DNA of 14,061 bases from Phenylobacterium sp. Lineage in GTDB: Bacteria; Pseudomonadota; Alphaproteobacteria; Caulobacterales; Caulobacteraceae. Location: contig JANXXA010000397.1 in assembly GCA_025350885.1 (NCBI GenBank), positions 1 through 14,061 on the forward strand, given 5' to 3'. The stretch's first letter is position 1; each line of letters begins with the position of its first letter. Shown in pieces: positions 6,995 through 14,061 of this stretch. Below the pieces are notes generated by a model that had not been told where the DNA came from, made no database searches, and saw only the letters and a list, made by a program, of their open reading frames with translations. The position numbers and the translations under genes are program-made.

Positions 6995-7531
6995 CTACTT
7001 CTTCAACACCTTCACCGCGTTCAGCGTCTGGGTGACGTGATCGTTGGGGTTGAGGTTCGAGTAGACGTGAGCAATCTCGCCGTTCTGAGTGATCACGTAC
7101 GAGGTCCGGCTGGACCAGTCGGGCCGGGCGGCCAGGGTCGAGTCATACTGCCTGGCGATTTTCGCGCCGGGGTCAGCGGCCACCGGGAATTTCCCGCCGC
7201 AATGCTCGGTTTCCGCGGAAAACGCGGCGAGCTCATCGACCTTGCCGGCGGTGACGCCGATGACCGTAGCCCTGGCGGCCTTGAACTGGTCGACGGCGTC
7301 CGAGAACAGGTGCGCCTCGAGATTGCAGCCGGAGGTGTGGGCGGCGGGAAAGAAATAGACCACCACCGGACCGTTCTTGAGGGCGTCAGCGAGCTTGTAG
7401 GTGAAGGGTCGGCCCGCGAGGAAGGCGGGCGCCGTGAAGTCGGGCGCCTTGGCGCCGACCCTGAGCTCGGCGAACGCCGGAGCGGCCAGGGTCGATACGG
7501 CCAGAGCGGCGGCTGCGATCAGGGTCTTCAT
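6995..7531 (-). CDS. Exported peroxiredoxin, BCP/PrxQ-like (AhpC/TSA family)
   Basis: The product probably reduces hydrogen peroxide or organic peroxides outside the cytoplasm using a reactive cysteine. The 178 residues start with a signal peptide (MKTLIAAAALAVSTLAA, likely cut after AFA at residue 21). A thioredoxin-fold peroxiredoxin domain follows, with VGAKAPDFTAP near the start and the peroxidatic site PAAHTSGC at residues 62-69, where Cys69 matches the family PxxxTxxC. Arg in SSRTSYVIT matches the conserved active-site arginine. The nearby resolving cysteine of many BCP proteins is absent; the only other cysteine is Cys111, so it is either an atypical 2-Cys or a 1-Cys enzyme. The start at 7531 has GGAAGGA five bases upstream. 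The frame is open further upstream, but that would bury the signal peptide. It lies 61 bases after the probable tip subunit and before the rpsF promoter; whether it shares the pilus transcript is unknown. Confidence 0.88.
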   Translation of the reverse strand: MKTLIAAAALAVSTLAAPAFAELRVGAKAPDFTAPAFLAGRPFTYKLADALKNGPVVVYFFPAAHTSGCNLEAHLFSDAVDQFKAARATVIGVTAGKVDELAAFSAETEHCGGKFPVAADPGAKIARQYDSTLAARPDWSSRTSYVITQNGEIAHVYSNLNPNDHVTQTLNAVKVLKK

Positions 7532-7590: not shown

Positions 7591-7604
7591 GCCTAGTTAT
7601 AGGC
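7591..7604. repeat. Hairpin spanning a stop codon
   Basis: GCCTA-GTTA-TAGGC is a perfect 5-base inverted repeat covering the stop codon of the two-domain DUF4402 protein. No T-run follows on the minus strand, so it is at best a weak terminator or mRNA-end structure. Confidence 0.3.
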
Positions 7605-8606
7605 GACCGTGACCGTGAAACTACCGCTGTAGCTCCCATCGGGGGTCGTGTTGCTGACCGGCATCGAGCCGCCGACACCGAAGGCATAGGCGCCCCCCGA
7701 TCCGAGCGACGAACTGAGGATCGGAGCCGTCGCGGCCGTGTTGGTGGTGGTCACGGTCAGGGCGGCGGGGCCGATCATGGAAAAAGACGGTGGCAGGCTG
7801 ACGGTAAACGCCTGGCCGCCTTCGCCAGTGACGTTGAAGCTCGCGCGGGTCGGCGTCGGCGGTGTCAGCCCGAAGGCTCCGCCCGTCGCTGTCAGGACGC
7901 CGGTGGTGGCGTTGACCGAGACCGTCCCCGAGCCGGTGGGCGGCTTGGTGATGCGGCCAAACACCAGATCCGAGCCCTTTGACAAGGCGATGGAGCGGAT
8001 CACGCGCGCCTGGAAGCGGCCGACGTCGCCGGTGGACGGGGTGGTCGGCGCCTCGGCCGCCCAGGCGAAGAAATCGGCTTCCGCGGCCGCCGTCGGCAGG
8101 CCGGAATCGTCTCCGGCGATCGGAAAATCGGCGCCGACGAAGAACGTCTTCGACGAATTGGCGCCGATAGGGCCGATGGCGAAGGCGGGAGAGCTGGGCG
8201 TGGTCGGGCTGGTGGCGAGCGTTGCGGTGCCCATGGCGATCAGGATGCGCGACAGCGTGCGCGCCCGCCCCGTCGGGGAACCGACGACGCCCAGCTTGAC
8301 GTTGACGTTCTTGGTGCAGTCGCCGACGCCGGTCGCGGTGCAGCCTATGGTGACGACGGCGTGGCTGGCGCCGCTGCTGGATCGGGTCGCCCCGCCGGAC
8401 ACGATGGTCACCAGGCCCGTCGTCGGATCGACGCGGAAGACGGTGTCGCCGGTGACTGCCGAGGTGACATTGCCCAGATCGACGTTGGCGGTGACCTGGA
8501 CGGTGTAGGTAGAGGCGGCGTGAGCGGCCATGGCGCCACATATCGACAGCAGAGACGCCGCCAGTATTCGCGCCACACCGACTTTCAAGAACCGACTCAT
8601 GATCAT
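7593..8606 (-). CDS. Secreted two-domain DUF4402-like protein, probable pilus tip subunit or adhesin
   Basis: I do not recognise a named gene. The 337-residue protein has a signal peptide (RILAASLLSICGAMA, cut near AHA, residue 30). It appears to hold two similar beta domains. The second, from about SIALSKGSDLVFGRITKP to the C-terminus GSYSGSFTVTVAYN, matches the DUF4402 pattern also seen in the small upstream pilin (DMVFGSIVRP...TYTGALNVTINYP). The first runs from TYTVQVTANVDLG to RFQARVIR; it has two cysteines (Cys89 and Cys97) that could form a small disulfide loop. Two-domain tip subunits, one binding and one pilin-like, are usual in chaperone-usher pili. The gene lies 68 bases after the usher. 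The start is either ATG 8606 or ATG 8600; both give the same signal peptide, and 8606 sits closer to the weak purine-rich site. Tip role is inferred from architecture and position. Confidence 0.75.
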   Translation of the reverse strand: MIMSRFLKVGVARILAASLLSICGAMAAHAASTYTVQVTANVDLGNVTSAVTGDTVFRVDPTTGLVTIVSGGATRSSSGASHAVVTIGCTATGVGDCTKNVNVKLGVVGSPTGRARTLSRILIAMGTATLATSPTTPSSPAFAIGPIGANSSKTFFVGADFPIAGDDSGLPTAAAEADFFAWAAEAPTTPSTGDVGRFQARVIRSIALSKGSDLVFGRITKPPTGSGTVSVNATTGVLTATGGAFGLTPPTPTRASFNVTGEGGQAFTVSLPPSFSMIGPAALTVTTTNTAATAPILSSSLGSGGAYAFGVGGSMPVSNTTPDGSYSGSFTVTVAYN

Positions 8607-8623
8607 GGCAGGATACGCCTGCC
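8607..8623 (-). repeat. Hairpin directly before the tip-subunit start codon
   Basis: On the minus strand GGCAGG-CGTAT-CCTGCC is a perfect 6-base stem with a 5-base loop, ending at the base before ATG 8606. It includes the only purine-rich stretch that could serve as a ribosome-binding site, so the folded mRNA could limit translation of this subunit. Structure seen; effect inferred. Confidence 0.45.
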
Positions 8624-8674
8624 CCACGCGGAAAGATGCGGTCCAGTCTAGCCGGTCTCTGGTTAAAAACCCGC

Positions 8675-11629
8675 TCAACCTGGGGGGCGTCCTTCGATGG
8701 CGGCGCGCGGCTCGAACCGAACCTCGGCCGATGCGTCGGGGGTGAATGACCCATCGGGCTTTATGGTAACGCTTACCGGAGCCAGAAGTTTCATCCGCAG
8801 GCGCGCTGCCTGCTCGGCGTCCAGCTGCAGCTGATAGGTGGTCGCGGGCAGGTCGAGAAAGTTCGCCGAGCCGTCGAACTCGGTGACGCTTTCGGCAAAC
8901 GCACCCTTGCTGTCGACCAGCCGCAGCCGGACCGCCGACAGCCCGACCAGTTGCCCGTCCGGGCGGCGCAGGCGAATGGTCACCAGCACCTCGCCGGTCG
9001 GGCGCATCGGGTACTCGACCTCAGTGACGCCGCCGGGCCGGGGGGCGAATTCCACGACCACAGGCGGGGTTTTGACGGCGGTGTTGTCGATGTCGTTGAT
9101 GCCGACCAGCAAGCGCGCGGTCGGACCCGTACCGAAGCCGCTCAGATAGGCGCGCCCGTCCGCGCCTGTGCGCGCGACATGCTCCCCGCCCTGAAGGGTG
9201 ACGCCGGAGACAGACCGTTCGCCAGGATTGAACTGGCCATCGCCATTGGCGTCGATGAAGGCGTGGAACGCCACCGAGCCGCCCGAGCCGGGGCCAGGCC
9301 GGGTCAGCTGATACGCGCCGACGACGGGGTTGTAGCCCAGGCCGAAGTTCATCTGAGCGCCCAGACGCCAGCTGGAGTCCACGGTGTTGTACTGGCCGGT
9401 GAAGGTCAGGTCCCCGTACTTGGTCCGTGTGGTCGTGCCGGCGATCAGCTCCAGGCCCCTGGGCGCATCGAAGCGCTGGGTCGCGGCGAACCGCACCAGC
9501 CAGGTGTCAGTAATGGCCCTGTCGAGTGTCAGGCCAAGGCCGGTCAGCCGGACGTCGGGGATGATGTCGTAGTCGAGGTTGGCGCGGACCTGCCACTGGT
9601 AGTGCTTGAAGGTCGAGCCCGAGAGGAAGCCGCGCAGTCGCTCGTTCATGGCCCCGGAGGCCACTGAGTTGCGGTCGTATTCCAAGCCGGTGGAAAACAG
9701 CACGCTGCCTACCGAGGCCGAGCCGCGGGCCTGGCCGACGATCGCGCTGCCGCCGTCCTTGTAGAGATCGCGCACCGCGCGCACGGAAATCGGGATGACG
9801 CGACCACCGAACAGGATGTTCTGATCGACCGTGACCTCGGTGCGACGGTCCAGCGGGCGCCCGAACTCCGCCTCTGAATTGTTTTCGTCCAGCAGGCCCC
9901 CGCGGTACTCGGCGTGGCGGACAGCGACGTTGGCGCCCAGGATGCGGCCAGCGACGGTCGCGGCCAGCCCGGAGCCGTTGCGATTGTCGGCGGCGGCGTC
10001 CAACTGGGTGGCGAAGCCGGCGAGGGAGGCGCGCAGGCCCGCGCCATAGAGCTGGCGCGAGACGCCGCGCTGGTCGGTGTAGATCGACCCGCCCCCGGTC
10101 AGGGTGAGGTACTGGCTAAGGCCGTAGTTGACCTGAGCGACGATCCGGGGCTTGCCGGTGCTGCGATCCACCGAGAAAGGATCGCGGTCGCGCAGACGAA
10201 GCAGCGGCTCATCCTGATCGACCGCTCCGAATGCGAACGTGGTCTCGCCGCGACGGAGCAGGCCGCCGCTGACATTGATGATCCGGGTTTCCTCCCTGCG
10301 CTGGCCGCGCGGTCCATAGGTGACGATGCGCACGACATTGACGCCCTGGGTCAGCGAGACGTTGAGGAATTCATACTGGCCCCGCTGGGATTGGGTCTGG
10401 CCGCCTTGCAGGACGTCGTTGACGTAGAGCTCCACGTCATCGCCCAGCTGCAGTTCGCCGCGCAGGTCGATGCGGTTGAAGACGTTGGTCTGGTCCAGGG
10501 GCACGGTGGAAATCGCAATCCCCCGCCCGCCGAAGCTGCGCGGCCCGATCGCCAGGCCCGGCGTGAAGACATCGCCGATGCCAATGCTGCGCGCGTGCAG
10601 GGGACCGAGAAGATCGCCCTCCAGGGATCGGCGTTCCAGCAGGATCCGCGCCGTTGTCAGGCTGCCGGTTTCGTCGGAGCCGAAATAGGCCTGCAGTCCA
10701 GCGTAAAGAAGATCGCCGCCCAGGCGGACATCGTAGCGGCTCGGAACCCGCGGTGACGTCGTCTGCACGCCGAGGCCAAGCGCGACATCGACGGACGGCG
10801 GGGTGAACAGGCGGTAGGGTGTCTCGACCCGCAGTACAGGGGCGGCGATGCTGGGCGTCGCCTGACGCAGGCGCGCGACACGCTGCAGGCGGCCCTGGAT
10901 CGGCAGCAGCTCCGACGCGGTTATTTTCATCGACAGGGCGCGCGAATTGACCTCGAATTTCAGCGGCAGCAGCTGTGCCAGCACCGAGGCCCGGACATAG
11001 ATTTCCGTGGGGCTCACGGCCACATCGCCAACGGCAAGGGCGACTTGCGTCGGCCCGATTCTCGCTGTGCTGGTGGCCAGGTCGATGACCAGGGCGCGGC
11101 GCGCCTCGCCGATGCTGCCGACGATCCGTCCTTCGCTGGGCATGACCTGAATGTCGAGCTCCAGCAGGCGGCTGAGTTCGCCAACCGGAATTTGCGGGTC
11201 GTTCTGCAGACCGTAGGCGGCCATGCCCTCGGTCAGCGTCAGGTTGTCGAGCTGCACGAACAGCAGCAGCAGCGTCTGCGGGTCCGGGGGCGCAAAGGCC
11301 AAGGCGCGGACCGGAGCGGAGCCCCGGCCAGAGACGCCGGCAGCGCTGATGCGGATGAGGCGCGGGTTTCCGATGGCCGCACGCTCCGCAAGCTGCGCCG
11401 GGTCCGGTGCGGCCAGCAGCAGGTCTCCAAAAGTGTCCGCCTGGCGCTGAAACTCGCGCTGAAATTCGGGGCGCTCAAGACCGGGACGATCCGGGCCGCG
11501 GCTGCTGGCTCGCAGCAAGGCGTCGATGGGGTCGGGTGGGCGTTCCTGCGCGATCCCCCGACCGCTGACCAGAAGCAGCGAAGCCGTCGTCGCGAGGAGC
11601 GCGGCGCGTCTAGAGGATGAGTTTCGCAA
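8675..11629 (-). CDS. Usher-like outer-membrane assembly protein (FimD/PapC/TcfC-type, divergent)
   Basis: The 984-residue protein probably forms the outer-membrane pore that receives chaperone-subunit complexes and assembles the pilus. Visible parts: a signal peptide (RRAALLATTASLLLVSG, cut near IAQ, residue 27); a long N-terminal periplasmic region, including VSPTEIYVRASVLAQLLPLK and ELLPIQGRLQR; and a beta barrel from about residue 275. Within it an usher plug-like domain at about 385-450 contains DDVELYVNDVLQGG and FLNVSLTQGVNVVRI. Alternating aromatic strands continue to about 780. C-terminal immunoglobulin or carboxypeptidase-regulatory-like domains begin with FIDANGDGQFNPGE near residues 789-802, a DxNxDG calcium-type loop. 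The usual C-terminal cysteine pair of classical ushers is not seen. The start is TTG at 11629-11627 with GGGAAAG six bases upstream, overlapping the chaperone end by 20 bases and pointing to coupled translation. I cannot assign it to an established usher clade with certainty. Confidence 0.82.
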   Translation of the reverse strand: MRNSSSRRAALLATTASLLLVSGRGIAQERPPDPIDALLRASSRGPDRPGLERPEFQREFQRQADTFGDLLLAAPDPAQLAERAAIGNPRLIRISAAGVSGRGSAPVRALAFAPPDPQTLLLLFVQLDNLTLTEGMAAYGLQNDPQIPVGELSRLLELDIQVMPSEGRIVGSIGEARRALVIDLATSTARIGPTQVALAVGDVAVSPTEIYVRASVLAQLLPLKFEVNSRALSMKITASELLPIQGRLQRVARLRQATPSIAAPVLRVETPYRLFTPPSVDVALGLGVQTTSPRVPSRYDVRLGGDLLYAGLQAYFGSDETGSLTTARILLERRSLEGDLLGPLHARSIGIGDVFTPGLAIGPRSFGGRGIAISTVPLDQTNVFNRIDLRGELQLGDDVELYVNDVLQGGQTQSQRGQYEFLNVSLTQGVNVVRIVTYGPRGQRREETRIINVSGGLLRRGETTFAFGAVDQDEPLLRLRDRDPFSVDRSTGKPRIVAQVNYGLSQYLTLTGGGSIYTDQRGVSRQLYGAGLRASLAGFATQLDAAADNRNGSGLAATVAGRILGANVAVRHAEYRGGLLDENNSEAEFGRPLDRRTEVTVDQNILFGGRVIPISVRAVRDLYKDGGSAIVGQARGSASVGSVLFSTGLEYDRNSVASGAMNERLRGFLSGSTFKHYQWQVRANLDYDIIPDVRLTGLGLTLDRAITDTWLVRFAATQRFDAPRGLELIAGTTTRTKYGDLTFTGQYNTVDSSWRLGAQMNFGLGYNPVVGAYQLTRPGPGSGGSVAFHAFIDANGDGQFNPGERSVSGVTLQGGEHVARTGADGRAYLSGFGTGPTARLLVGINDIDNTAVKTPPVVVEFAPRPGGVTEVEYPMRPTGEVLVTIRLRRPDGQLVGLSAVRLRLVDSKGAFAESVTEFDGSANFLDLPATTYQLQLDAEQAARLRMKLLAPVSVTIKPDGSFTPDASAEVRFEPRAAIEGRPPG

Positions 11630-12593
11630 GGAGCTTTCCCGGCGAGGTGTCGTCGTCGGTGAAGGTCACCTCCAGGTGTTCAGCCGGCGACGGGACGCGG
11701 GTGAGGGTGATGCGGATCGTCCGACGTTCGATCTCTGGGTAGACGCCGACCCCGCGGGCCATGCCCAGTGGCAGAGGCTTCAGATCGCCCAGGGTGCGGA
11801 TCTCGACATTGCCGAACAGCGAATTCGCACCTTGCCGGACCAGTTCCAGCGTCAGGATCGCGGTCCGGACCGCCGGTGCGCCCAGCGACGGCGCCAACTG
11901 CTCGTAGCTGATGCGGGCGTTCTCAATGCCGGCGCGCATGTCCAGCTCGTTCAAGCGCACGATAGCCGGTATGCTCAGTCCCAGAAGGGCGTTGATCTGA
12001 AAGCGCAATTCGCCCTGCGGTGTCGCCGCCGCAGCAGCGGCCTCGGCCGTCGTGCCGGCCTCCCGAGGGGGCAGGGTCGAGATTGTCAGGTGGCTGCGCA
12101 GTTCCGATGCGCCGGGCTCGTCCGCCGCTCCGATCATCCGCAGACGGATTGTCTGCCCCTGGCCGGGGTCCAGGGTCACGCGACGCGGCGACACCTGCAG
12201 GACGTTCTTTGCCGACCTCACCCGATCAGCGATCGCCTTGGTCTCCGGCTTGGCCAGGGCATCGGCAAGCGGCAGGATCTGGCCGTCCGGCATCATCACC
12301 CGATCCACCAGGGAAATGTCAAAGGTGCCCGGCCCGGAACCTTGGTTGAAAATGAAGACCGAGCCCGAGCGATGGCTCCGATCAAAGGTCACCCGCTTCG
12401 GAGAAATGTTGAGGTTCGCGCCGCTGGCCGGGGCGATCGTCACCTGAGGCGGCGAGGCTGGCGGCGCCGTGCCGGGGGATGCGGGCGCGGCGCCGGCCGC
12501 CGCCGGTCCCCGGGCTCCGGCCGGCTGGGCTGAAACCGCGGGCGCGCAAATTCCCAGGACGAGAAGCGCGGCGAGGAAGGCTTGAGGCTTCAC
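11610..12593 (-). CDS. Periplasmic pilus chaperone (PapD-like)
   Basis: The product probably binds pilin subunits in the periplasm and delivers them to the adjacent usher. From the GTG at 12593 the 327 residues give a signal peptide (FLAALLVLGICAPAVSA, cut near residue 22), then an unusual Pro/Ala/Gly-rich stretch at 24-49. An N-terminal immunoglobulin-like domain starts near 59: LNISPKRVTFD with Arg67, SGSVFIFNQGSGPGTFDISL, then the G1-type strand LQVSPRRVTLDPGQGQTIRL and the family-like RSHLTISTLPP. The phrase LGLSIPAIVR and a second domain (AILTLELVRQGANSLFGNVEI) match two-domain chaperones, best the archaic or alternate types. The frame is open to 12722, but only the GTG places the signal peptide at the N-terminus. 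The stop is inside the usher start. Identity as a fimbrial chaperone is good; its clade is uncertain. Confidence 0.85.
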   Translation of the reverse strand: MKPQAFLAALLVLGICAPAVSAQPAGARGPAAAGAAPASPGTAPPASPPQVTIAPASGANLNISPKRVTFDRSHRSGSVFIFNQGSGPGTFDISLVDRVMMPDGQILPLADALAKPETKAIADRVRSAKNVLQVSPRRVTLDPGQGQTIRLRMIGAADEPGASELRSHLTISTLPPREAGTTAEAAAAAATPQGELRFQINALLGLSIPAIVRLNELDMRAGIENARISYEQLAPSLGAPAVRTAILTLELVRQGANSLFGNVEIRTLGDLKPLPLGMARGVGVYPEIERRTIRITLTRVPSPAEHLEVTFTDDDTSPGKLLAKLIL

Positions 12594-12665
12594 GCAAAAC
12601 GCACCGCGACGGGACCATCGGCCTGCGACCGCTGGGCGGCGACCCCGGGGCGCGAGACCACGCGG

Positions 12666-12695
12666 AGTATCCGTCAGGGATTGGTTGGCTCGCAA
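12666..12695 (-). promoter_or_regulatory. Possible promoter for the chaperone-usher genes
   Basis: TTGCGA (12695-12690) and GATACT (12671-12666) are spaced by 18 bases, four of six matches in each box. It would start transcription near 12659, about 65 bases before the chaperone GTG. It is the best candidate I find in the 375-base gap between the pilin and the chaperone, which also contains a terminator and a dyad and shows no convincing gene. Confidence 0.35.
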
Positions 12696-12733
12696 GTTCG
12701 TTTCCGATCGCGAAGGGTGCATCGCGCCGCCCC

Positions 12734-12751
12734 ATGCTCACGATTGAGCAT
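12734..12751. repeat. Perfect 7-4-7 dyad, possible operator of the chaperone-usher genes
   Basis: ATGCTCA-CGAT-TGAGCAT is a perfect 7-base inverted repeat with a 4-base spacer. It lies about 39 bases upstream of the candidate -35 box of the chaperone promoter, a place where activators bind. There is no T-run, so it is not a terminator. The binding factor is unknown. Confidence 0.5.
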
Positions 12752-12883
12752 CAGCGAGTCGGAAGCGTGGCGGCATAGGGTTAATGTCGCGTTCCAGAGC
12801 CCCAATCGGGCGTTTTCCAGCGATCTTTTTCGTGAGTTCGCCGTCGCGTGACCACGGCGTCACCTTGAAAGGCGCCCCGTTAC

Positions 12884-12919
12884 AAAAACAGCGATGGCCG
12901 CCCCGAGAGGAGCGGCCAT
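12884..12919 (-). terminator. Intrinsic terminator after the pilin gene
   Basis: On the minus strand an 11-base stem (ATGGCCGCTCC with GGGGCGGCCAT, one G-T pair) closes a TCTC loop and is followed after four bases by GTTTTTG. It lies 49 bases after the pilin stop and 290 bases before the chaperone. It should end most pilin transcripts and so set pilin expression well above that of the assembly genes; some read-through is possible. Confidence 0.88.
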
Positions 12920-12968
12920 GCCTGTATCGCGATGGCCGATGTCTCGGCCGGACGCCCGTCGCCGGGGA

Positions 12969-13484
12969 TCAGGGGTAGTTGATCGTGACGTTCAGCGCCC
13001 CGGTATAGGTCGCGGGCGGTGTCGCCGGATCGATGTCGAATTGTCCACCGTAGCGGATTTCCTGCGTACCCGCGGCCGGGATGGTGCCCAGGGTGCCGGT
13101 GGAGGCCACCGGCAGGCTCGCGGCGATGCCCGTCAGGCCGGGCGTGGTGAAGGTCAGGGTCTGCGTCGTCGTGTAGGTCGTAGCCCCGGTTACCGTGATG
13201 TTGAACTTGGCCGAAGTTGTCGTGCCCGCGATGAGTGATGCATCGCCCGCGCCGGTCTTCGAGACCACGTTGGTGGTGTTCAGAATGATGGTGTTGGTGC
13301 CGGTCACCGGGCGGACGATGGAGCCGAACACCATGTCCTGGGTCTTGGTGATGGTCACCGGCGAGATGATCGTCGCGGTGGCGTTCGCCGAGGTGGAGAC
13401 CGAACCGGCCGCCAGCGCGCCGCCGGCCGCGGTGGTCAGCGCGATCGCCGCGCCGGTTGCGATAAGAATGTTGCGCAGTTTCAT
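12969..13484 (-). CDS. DUF4402-type secreted protein, probable major pilin
   Basis: I do not recognise a named gene. The 171-residue protein starts with a clear signal peptide (MKLRNILIATGAAIALTTAA, cut after ALA at residue 25). The mature part of about 146 residues is Thr/Ala/Gly-rich, has no cysteine and few charged residues, and is predicted to be all beta. DMVFGSIVRPVTG and the C-terminal TYTGALNVTINYP are the features of the DUF4402 family, and the same two stretches recur in the larger protein at 7593-8606. The start has GGGGA six bases upstream. Size, composition, a strong promoter candidate, its own terminator and the neighbouring chaperone-usher genes all suggest an abundant shaft subunit. 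The assignment to DUF4402 comes from remembered family patterns, not from a search; the pilin role is inferred. Confidence 0.82.
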   Translation of the reverse strand: MKLRNILIATGAAIALTTAAGGALAAGSVSTSANATATIISPVTITKTQDMVFGSIVRPVTGTNTIILNTTNVVSKTGAGDASLIAGTTTSAKFNITVTGATTYTTTQTLTFTTPGLTGIAASLPVASTGTLGTIPAAGTQEIRYGGQFDIDPATPPATYTGALNVTINYP

Positions 13485-13569
13485 GGTGTTCCCCGATGCC
13501 GTTCGAATGAAGCGGGTAAACGAACTTGCATCACATCGTTCCAGGGAATCCGGACCGGTGCGCCCCGCC

Positions 13570-13608
13570 TTAACTACTCGTTAGGAAAGTTCATTAAATA
13601 GATGTTTA
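13570..13608. promoter_or_regulatory. Two CtrA-like boxes at the pilin promoter
   Basis: TTAA-N7-TTAG (13570-13584) and TTAA-N7-TTTA (13594-13608) each match seven of eight bases of the Caulobacterales CtrA consensus TTAA-N7-TTAA. One overlaps the -10 region and the other the predicted start, positions where CtrA could repress or time expression. The region is locally AT-rich, so chance matches are possible. Confidence 0.35.
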
Positions 13609-13619
13609 CAAACTGTCAA
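13593..13619 (-). promoter_or_regulatory. Candidate promoter of the pilin gene
   Basis: A perfect -35 TTGACA (13619-13614) is followed after 15 bases by TTTAAT (13598-13593), five of six matches. TAATGA at 17-base spacing is a weaker alternative. It predicts a start near 13586 and a leader of about 100 bases before the pilin ATG. A consensus -35 in an otherwise GC-rich region fits a highly expressed gene. Confidence 0.55.
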
Positions 13620-13788
13620 GGCGAAGCATCGGGGTTACGATTCGCCAATGACCTCTTGGCGGTATCAGCTTTGGATGCGCGCCCCGGCCGTTAACCAAGT
13701 TAAGCGGAAGGCCAGAACCTGAGCCTTCGCGGGTTCGCCTCGCACGCGAATAGTCCAGTGTTCGCCTGACAAGTCAGAGCCTGGCGAA
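13620..13788. repeat. Cluster of five TTCGCC/GGCGAA hexamers upstream of the pilin gene
   Basis: GGCGAA occurs at 13620-13625 and 13783-13788, and TTCGCC at 13641-13646, 13734-13739 and 13761-13766. The first two form an inverted pair centred 21 bases apart directly against the -35 box. The last two form a second inverted pair enclosing the perfect dyad CTGAC-AA-GTCAG (13766-13777). Such a cluster resembles a set of binding sites for a dimeric regulator. The surrounding gap 13485-13932 shows no convincing gene. Confidence 0.45.
13691..13703. repeat. TTAAC-CAA-GTTAA dyad
   Basis: A perfect 5-base inverted repeat with a 3-base spacer lies about 70 bases upstream of the pilin -35 box. It contains the CtrA-like half site TTAACC but not the N7 spacing. 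It may be an operator or chance. Confidence 0.3.
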
Positions 13789-13932
13789 ACCTGGATGGGA
13801 ACAGACCGTCGCTTGGCTGAGACTGCGCGGACCCGTAGCCTTGCGAAATGTGCGGCGCGCCCAGGCGTCTTCCGATGACGATCCAGACCCACCGCGACAA
13901 TATGCGCAGACAACGCCCGAAGAAATTTCCGC

Positions 13933-14061
13933 CTAAAGCTGCGGCGTAACGAGAATTTTTACATGGGCTTCCGGGTCGCTTAACGCCGTGAAGGCCCCGG
14001 TCACCCCCTCGAGGCCCACGCGCCCGGTCACCAGGCCAGTCACATCGATCCGGCCCTCGGC
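13933..14061 (-). CDS. C-terminal end of a probable zinc-type medium-chain dehydrogenase
   Basis: Only the last 42 codons are present; the gene begins beyond base 14061. The translated stretch reads IDVTGLVTGRVGLEGVTGAF, then TALSDPEAHVKILVTP and a TAG stop. The pattern of a target phrase on gained ground (TGRVGLEGVTGAF), then DPEAHVKILV, is typical of the C-terminus of zinc-binding alcohol or sorbitol/threonine-type dehydrogenases, where the last strand rejoins the catalytic domain. Substrate cannot be told. No clear terminator follows within the 100 bases after the stop. It is oriented like the pilus genes but separated from the pilin gene by 448 bases and is probably unrelated. Confidence 0.68.
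   Translation of the reverse strand, partial: AEGRIDVTGLVTGRVGLEGVTGAFTALSDPEAHVKILVTPQL

Follow-up and report, generated by a model that had tools for sequence, protein, structure and literature searches.

A four-gene locus of Phenylobacterium predicted to encode a chaperone-usher pilus with DUF4402 subunits

What do four adjacent genes of a Phenylobacterium sp. genome, two of which code for proteins related to the Pfam domain of unknown function DUF4402, jointly assemble? The genes occupy positions 7593..13484, on the minus strand, of a 14,061-nucleotide stretch (hereafter the window) that is the entire contig JANXXA010000397.1 of a draft assembly (3.09 Mb in 598 contigs, completeness of 73%), and the closest named relatives belong to Phenylobacterium and other Caulobacteraceae. 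An initial annotation had read them as a small DUF4402-type secreted protein, a PapD-like chaperone, a divergent usher and a two-domain DUF4402-like protein, matching the shaft, chaperone, usher and tip of a poorly described pilus. We verified the four open frames at this position; together, they very probably specify a complete pilus of the chaperone-usher type, belonging to a separate branch and built from DUF4402 subunits. Sequence comparisons and structure models support this reading: all four components are present and related to those of archaic chaperone-usher systems, the pilin carries a donor-strand-like extension, the gene order recurs, and the genes co-occur across genomes.

The first gene (12969..13484) encodes the predicted major pilin, a protein of 171 residues without cysteine that bears a signal peptide (assigned by eye, as for the other proteins) and that was aligned with 29 relatives. 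Its residues 43-170 scored 51 bits against Pfam DUF4402 (cut-off 25.2), in agreement with the initial annotation. Ahead of this domain, the mature N-terminal extension carries a putative donor strand (residues 27-40; 13365..13406) in which small hydrophobic and polar residues alternate. Residues 29-39 alternate Ala, Val or Ile with Ser or Thr, the column hydropathy of 52 aligned rows follows the same alternation, and no 13-residue stretch of the protein alternates more strongly than the one beginning at residue 26 (score of 1.0 vs a median of 0.47, 30 rows). The pilin N-terminus therefore has the sequence pattern of a donor strand, and its donation to a neighboring subunit is putative. One could instead picture a secretion route for soluble DUF4402 proteins that form no polymer, as orphan DUF4402 genes do occur at a distance from the machinery; yet a conserved alternating strand on the small subunits would have no evident use without polymerization, and we regard this explanation as very improbable.

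The second gene encodes a predicted periplasmic PapD-like chaperone (11610..12530, within an open frame from 12722). Since most aligned homologues begin there, translation probably starts at GTG 12530 rather than ATG 12722. The protein scored 21.5 bits against PapD_N, slightly below the cut-off of 23; the same model was matched above cut-off by 3 of 10 relatives, some homologues carry PF00345, and a mixed set of these chaperones matched archaic chaperones by hhalign (97.6%, E 3.1e-12). Both Pro179 and Arg209 are conserved. The former corresponds to the superfamily-invariant proline, aligned in 45 of 45 chaperone rows, and the latter to the arginine that distinguishes archaic and alternative chaperones from classical ones; both residues are named in an excerpt of PMC4654587. 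At the position of the arginine, the classical K-12 chaperones have Trp, Phe or Tyr (5/5). A chaperone-like protein of Bacteroidota (L076:11644-12570; L and G numbers designate our loci and genomes) also displayed a sub-threshold match to a type IX secretion sorting domain.

The third gene (8675..11629) encodes the predicted outer-membrane usher. Its divergence was confirmed, as neither this protein nor any other of the genome matched the Pfam Usher model (PF00577), yet the top 15 PDB entries retrieved with its AlphaFold model were all PapC or FimD, and hhalign aligned it with archaic ushers (99.5%) over most of its length. We therefore identify it as an usher by fold and profile-profile comparison rather than by Pfam. 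The model places an N-terminal periplasmic domain at residues ~115-258, a beta-barrel at ~276-767 and C-terminal domains at ~784-972. The standard Pfam model overlooks the family as a whole: 24 close ushers matched no usher model, only C-terminal beta-sandwich types (SdrD_B in 22, carboxypeptidase-regulatory in 16, EMC7 beta-sandwich in 4 and SpaA in 2), and nine distant ones gave a single, sub-threshold Usher match of 15.2 bits. Usher and chaperone alike scored to the chaperone-usher superfamily and not to an unrelated one. Searches of Pfam, NCBIfam and PDB sequences, conducted with usher and chaperone as single sequences and with pilin, chaperone and tip as profiles, returned no convincing solved relative. 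A merged usher alignment (uall) was discarded because its column shuffles scored strongly as well. Among the relatives, a Bacteroidota usher-like protein carries C-terminal tetratricopeptide repeats (L118:12065-15877), copper-amine-oxidase-N-like matches occur in the usher N-terminal region at two loci (L115:10606-14166, above cut-off; L076:12525-15581, below), and the usher matches of G283 (L106) and G487 contain an in-frame stop.

The fourth gene, which probably starts at ATG 8606, encodes a two-domain protein that we take as the candidate tip. The gene product scored 93.4 bits against DUF4402 (cut-off 25.2), and its C-terminal domain (7593..7997) matched the pilins by hhalign at 99.9%. The N-terminal half (7998..8519), a putative binding domain with two cysteines (model pLDDT of 90.6), is itself a remote DUF4402 relative, as it matched its own C-terminal domain at 94.3% and the pilins at 91.3%, while three shuffles reached at most 0.3%. 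This protein has no N-terminal extension; the second domain stands in its place. Comparison of its model with known structures did not single out pilus adhesins. The four components proposed by the initial annotation are recovered by sequence and model; the shaft and tip roles are those that we infer from anatomy. The pilus would likely serve in attachment to surfaces or other cells.

The arrangement of the four genes exceeds chance. An usher search yielded 41 named loci, 31 of which had the order pilin-chaperone-usher-tip, with one to three pilins; the remaining 10 were mostly cut by contig ends, and L034 had no upstream pilin. L045 and L046, from Bacteroidota, contained pilins, chaperone and usher and no two-domain match to the tip profile. 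All seven Acidobacteriota loci (L133-L139) had pilin, chaperone and usher, while L128 is truncated within the usher gene. Such machinery could also export DUF4402 subunits as a thin amorphous coat rather than as discrete pili with a tip adhesin. The F1 antigen and spore coat U are thin coats made by chaperone-usher systems, and many Bacteroidota loci have several small pilins with no profile-detected two-domain DUF4402 protein after the usher. However, a tip-like two-domain DUF4402 protein does follow the usher in those 31 loci, nearly all of which are alphaproteobacterial, and in four of the Acidobacteriota loci, and we consider a coat unlikely.

Beyond gene order, the presence of DUF4402 genes and ushers coincided across genomes, as the initial annotation anticipated. 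Chaperone and usher were detected in the fetched stretch for 70 of 86 DUF4402 places (43 genomes), in 69 cases on the same strand, at a median DUF4402-to-chaperone distance of 588 bases. At least one place with both genes in its stretch was present in 41 of the 43 genomes; of the two exceptions, G389 has chaperone and usher split over two contigs that end there, and G144 has neither. The survey profiles had been widened beforehand with five class loci. This count leaves out G339, G234 and G258, which have complete or almost complete loci (L045, L131 and L132). Five DUF4402 places of the survey, together with those of G111 and G868, most of them under the Pfam cut-off, were left aside.

In 150 Caulobacterales genomes, DUF4402 was found in 8, including our own, and all 8 had the usher, compared with weak partial usher matches in 3 of the 142 genomes without DUF4402. 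At E 0.001, and with each sample including the genome at its center, DUF4402 was detected in 8/190 genomes drawn from Alphaproteobacteria (7 above the Pfam cut-off), 5/249 from Pseudomonadota (3 above), 31/198 from Bacteroidota (30 above) and 9/149 from Acidobacteriota (8 above). Using a wide usher profile built in part from Bacteroidota loci found via DUF4402, full-length matches (>190 bits) were obtained in 30 of the 31 Bacteroidota with DUF4402 (124.6 bits in the 31st) and in 9 of the 167 without. Of these nine, seven have DUF4402-like pilins by the chaperone that Pfam misses, one is cut by a contig end and one shows none. Partial usher matches, which accounted for 84 of 124 matching Bacteroidota genomes and mostly concerned the C-terminal domain among the matches listed, were not counted. 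The initial annotation had looked to Alphaproteobacteria; the system does occur there, and by sequence it extends to Bacteroidota and Acidobacteriota, that is, to at least three phyla.

Is this then simply an ordinary archaic (sigma) system, such as Csu of Acinetobacter or CupE of Pseudomonas, whose proteins have drifted past the Pfam models? By profile, the three components are all nearest to archaic ones. The DUF4402 pilins are remotely homologous to SCPU pilins (96.7% for 52 rows and 97.3% for 67 other rows, shuffles at most 0.1%), the SCPU-type pilin of archaic locus L091 scored 17 bits against the DUF4402 profile, and the chaperones share the non-classical arginine besides the invariant proline. 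The csu genes are ordered pilin, chaperone, usher, tip, which the order of our locus resembles. The first pilin set held five Bacteroidota rows and, in addition, three repeats; the second resulted from dropping one archaic-locus row of 68 (97.6% becoming 97.3%), and rebuilding the pilin profile without that row left the locus surveys unchanged.

In contrast, no Pfam Usher or SCPU (PF05229) match was found in this genome, and the conserved cysteines of archaic pilins are missing: 41/52 pilins of the first set and 39/67 of the second have no cysteine past residue 30, whereas 16/16 SCPU pilins have at least two. Furthermore, in a quick, unrooted tree of 74 ushers, whose rows differ strongly in composition, the 55 rows of the DUF4402 side all lay to one side of a branch (94), and another branch (99) grouped 13 archaic with 5 classical ushers. 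One of the 55 (L107) belongs to a genome in which Pfam detects no DUF4402. Of 14 archaic loci, one (L090) yielded no usher. Unlike archaic pili, DUF4402 systems occur in Bacteroidota and Acidobacteriota. The DUF4402 systems are thus not shown to belong to the archaic branch, two defining pilin features of which are absent, while the working principle looks the same. We hold drift within the archaic branch to be possible, though rather improbable.

By sequence, the DUF4402 genes make up a complete, widespread pilus-type system, which we regard as a new branch of an established pilus type. Whether they form a fourth chaperone-usher branch that split off before archaic and classical ushers parted, spans Alphaproteobacteria, Acidobacteriota and Bacteroidota, and equips Bacteroidota with a chaperone-usher pilus in addition to type V fimbriae is in our view an evenly balanced question. 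With classical type 1 (Fim) and P (Pap) pili, the locus has in common the usher fold and, as predicted, the donor-strand logic and a two-domain tip; unlike in Fim and Pap, its pilin is barely related to the FimA type by profile (7.5% and 40.7% for the two pilin sets). Alternative (alpha) systems such as ECP and CFA/I offer two likenesses, as EcpB also has the non-classical arginine, and the DUF4402-side ushers bear near their C-terminus a carboxypeptidase-regulatory or SdrD-like domain of a kind that alternative ushers carry as well. EcpC and EcpA, available as single sequences only, gave no usable profile match to clean DUF4402-system sets; archaic ushers themselves matched EcpC at only 42%, and EcpC stood on a very long branch beside the DUF4402 rows of the usher tree. 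Type V fimbriae (FimA/Mfa1 of Porphyromonas) form a donor-strand polymer on the Bacteroidota surface, as predicted for the DUF4402 pili, and differ in having lipoprotein precursors and gingipain cleavage, with no ushers or fimbrial chaperones reported in an excerpt of PMC4789730.

No paper on DUF4402 (PF14352) was found among the open-access papers searched, and among the titles and opening abstract lines on chaperone-usher pili of these taxa none described a DUF4402 system; most subscription papers lie outside this search, and a description elsewhere is possible. Databases name a few relatives fimbrial usher or 'P pilus assembly chaperone PapD'. The DUF4402 system may represent a branch, yet to be described, of a familiar pilus pathway, as the initial annotation surmised. 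An excerpt of PMC4654587 gives the distribution of chaperone-usher systems as Proteobacteria, Cyanobacteria and Deinococcus-Thermus, to which Table 1 of PMC4827864 adds Spirochaetae; Bacteroidota and Acidobacteriota, absent from these two lists as excerpted, would widen the range. DUF4402 would gain a likely function as a pilus subunit, and a possible new outgroup would make the origin of the pathway testable.

Under the proposed chaperone-usher assembly, the chaperone would lend a strand to each DUF4402 subunit and anchor the subunit C-terminus via Arg209. The two-domain tip protein, lacking an N-terminal extension, would enter the usher first, each arriving pilin would insert its alternating N-terminal strand into the preceding subunit, and a thin fiber would exit through the usher pore. 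Shaft pilin may be produced in excess of chaperone, usher and tip if a hairpin past the pilin gene stops part of the transcripts. This terminator-like structure (12894..12919, minus strand; 11-pair stem, 4-nt loop, T-rich tail) lies 49 nt past the pilin stop, and an 84-nt stretch around it folds with a z of -3.7; the hairpin scan returned 2 sites vs 1.5 expected by shuffling. The close relatives L007, L008, L009 and L015 have the same hairpin with substitutions in its stem. With 8 of 33 loci having a usable gap positive, vs 4% of rough block shuffles, we rejected it as a general feature of these loci, as it is consistent in the closest relatives only.

A promoter scan of 12400-14061 found none, and nothing in the window reached the gathering score of Rfam. 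Downstream of the four pilus genes lie a peroxiredoxin with a signal peptide, then rpsF, rpsR, rplI and dnaB. The peroxiredoxin gene (6995-7531) follows the tip gene, which it does not always adjoin in related loci. A peroxiredoxin relative was present within the fetched stretch in 21 of 48 related loci, with rpsF in 20, rpsR in 19 and rplI in 18. Because these neighbors recur, we propose that the pilus locus of this lineage occupies a fixed chromosomal place and does not lie on a mobile element. A third DUF4402 gene of the same genome (L003, G000:C43:11231-11614), located downstream of an AraC-like regulator frame (named by eye), encodes a protein 51% identical to the window pilin; no chaperone or usher was found in the fetched 3.4 kb, and the machinery of the window may use its product as an alternative subunit. 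Finally, a single open frame of 1815 residues in G111 (C1:1101977-1104046) contains two sub-threshold DUF4402 matches and is possibly a large adhesin.
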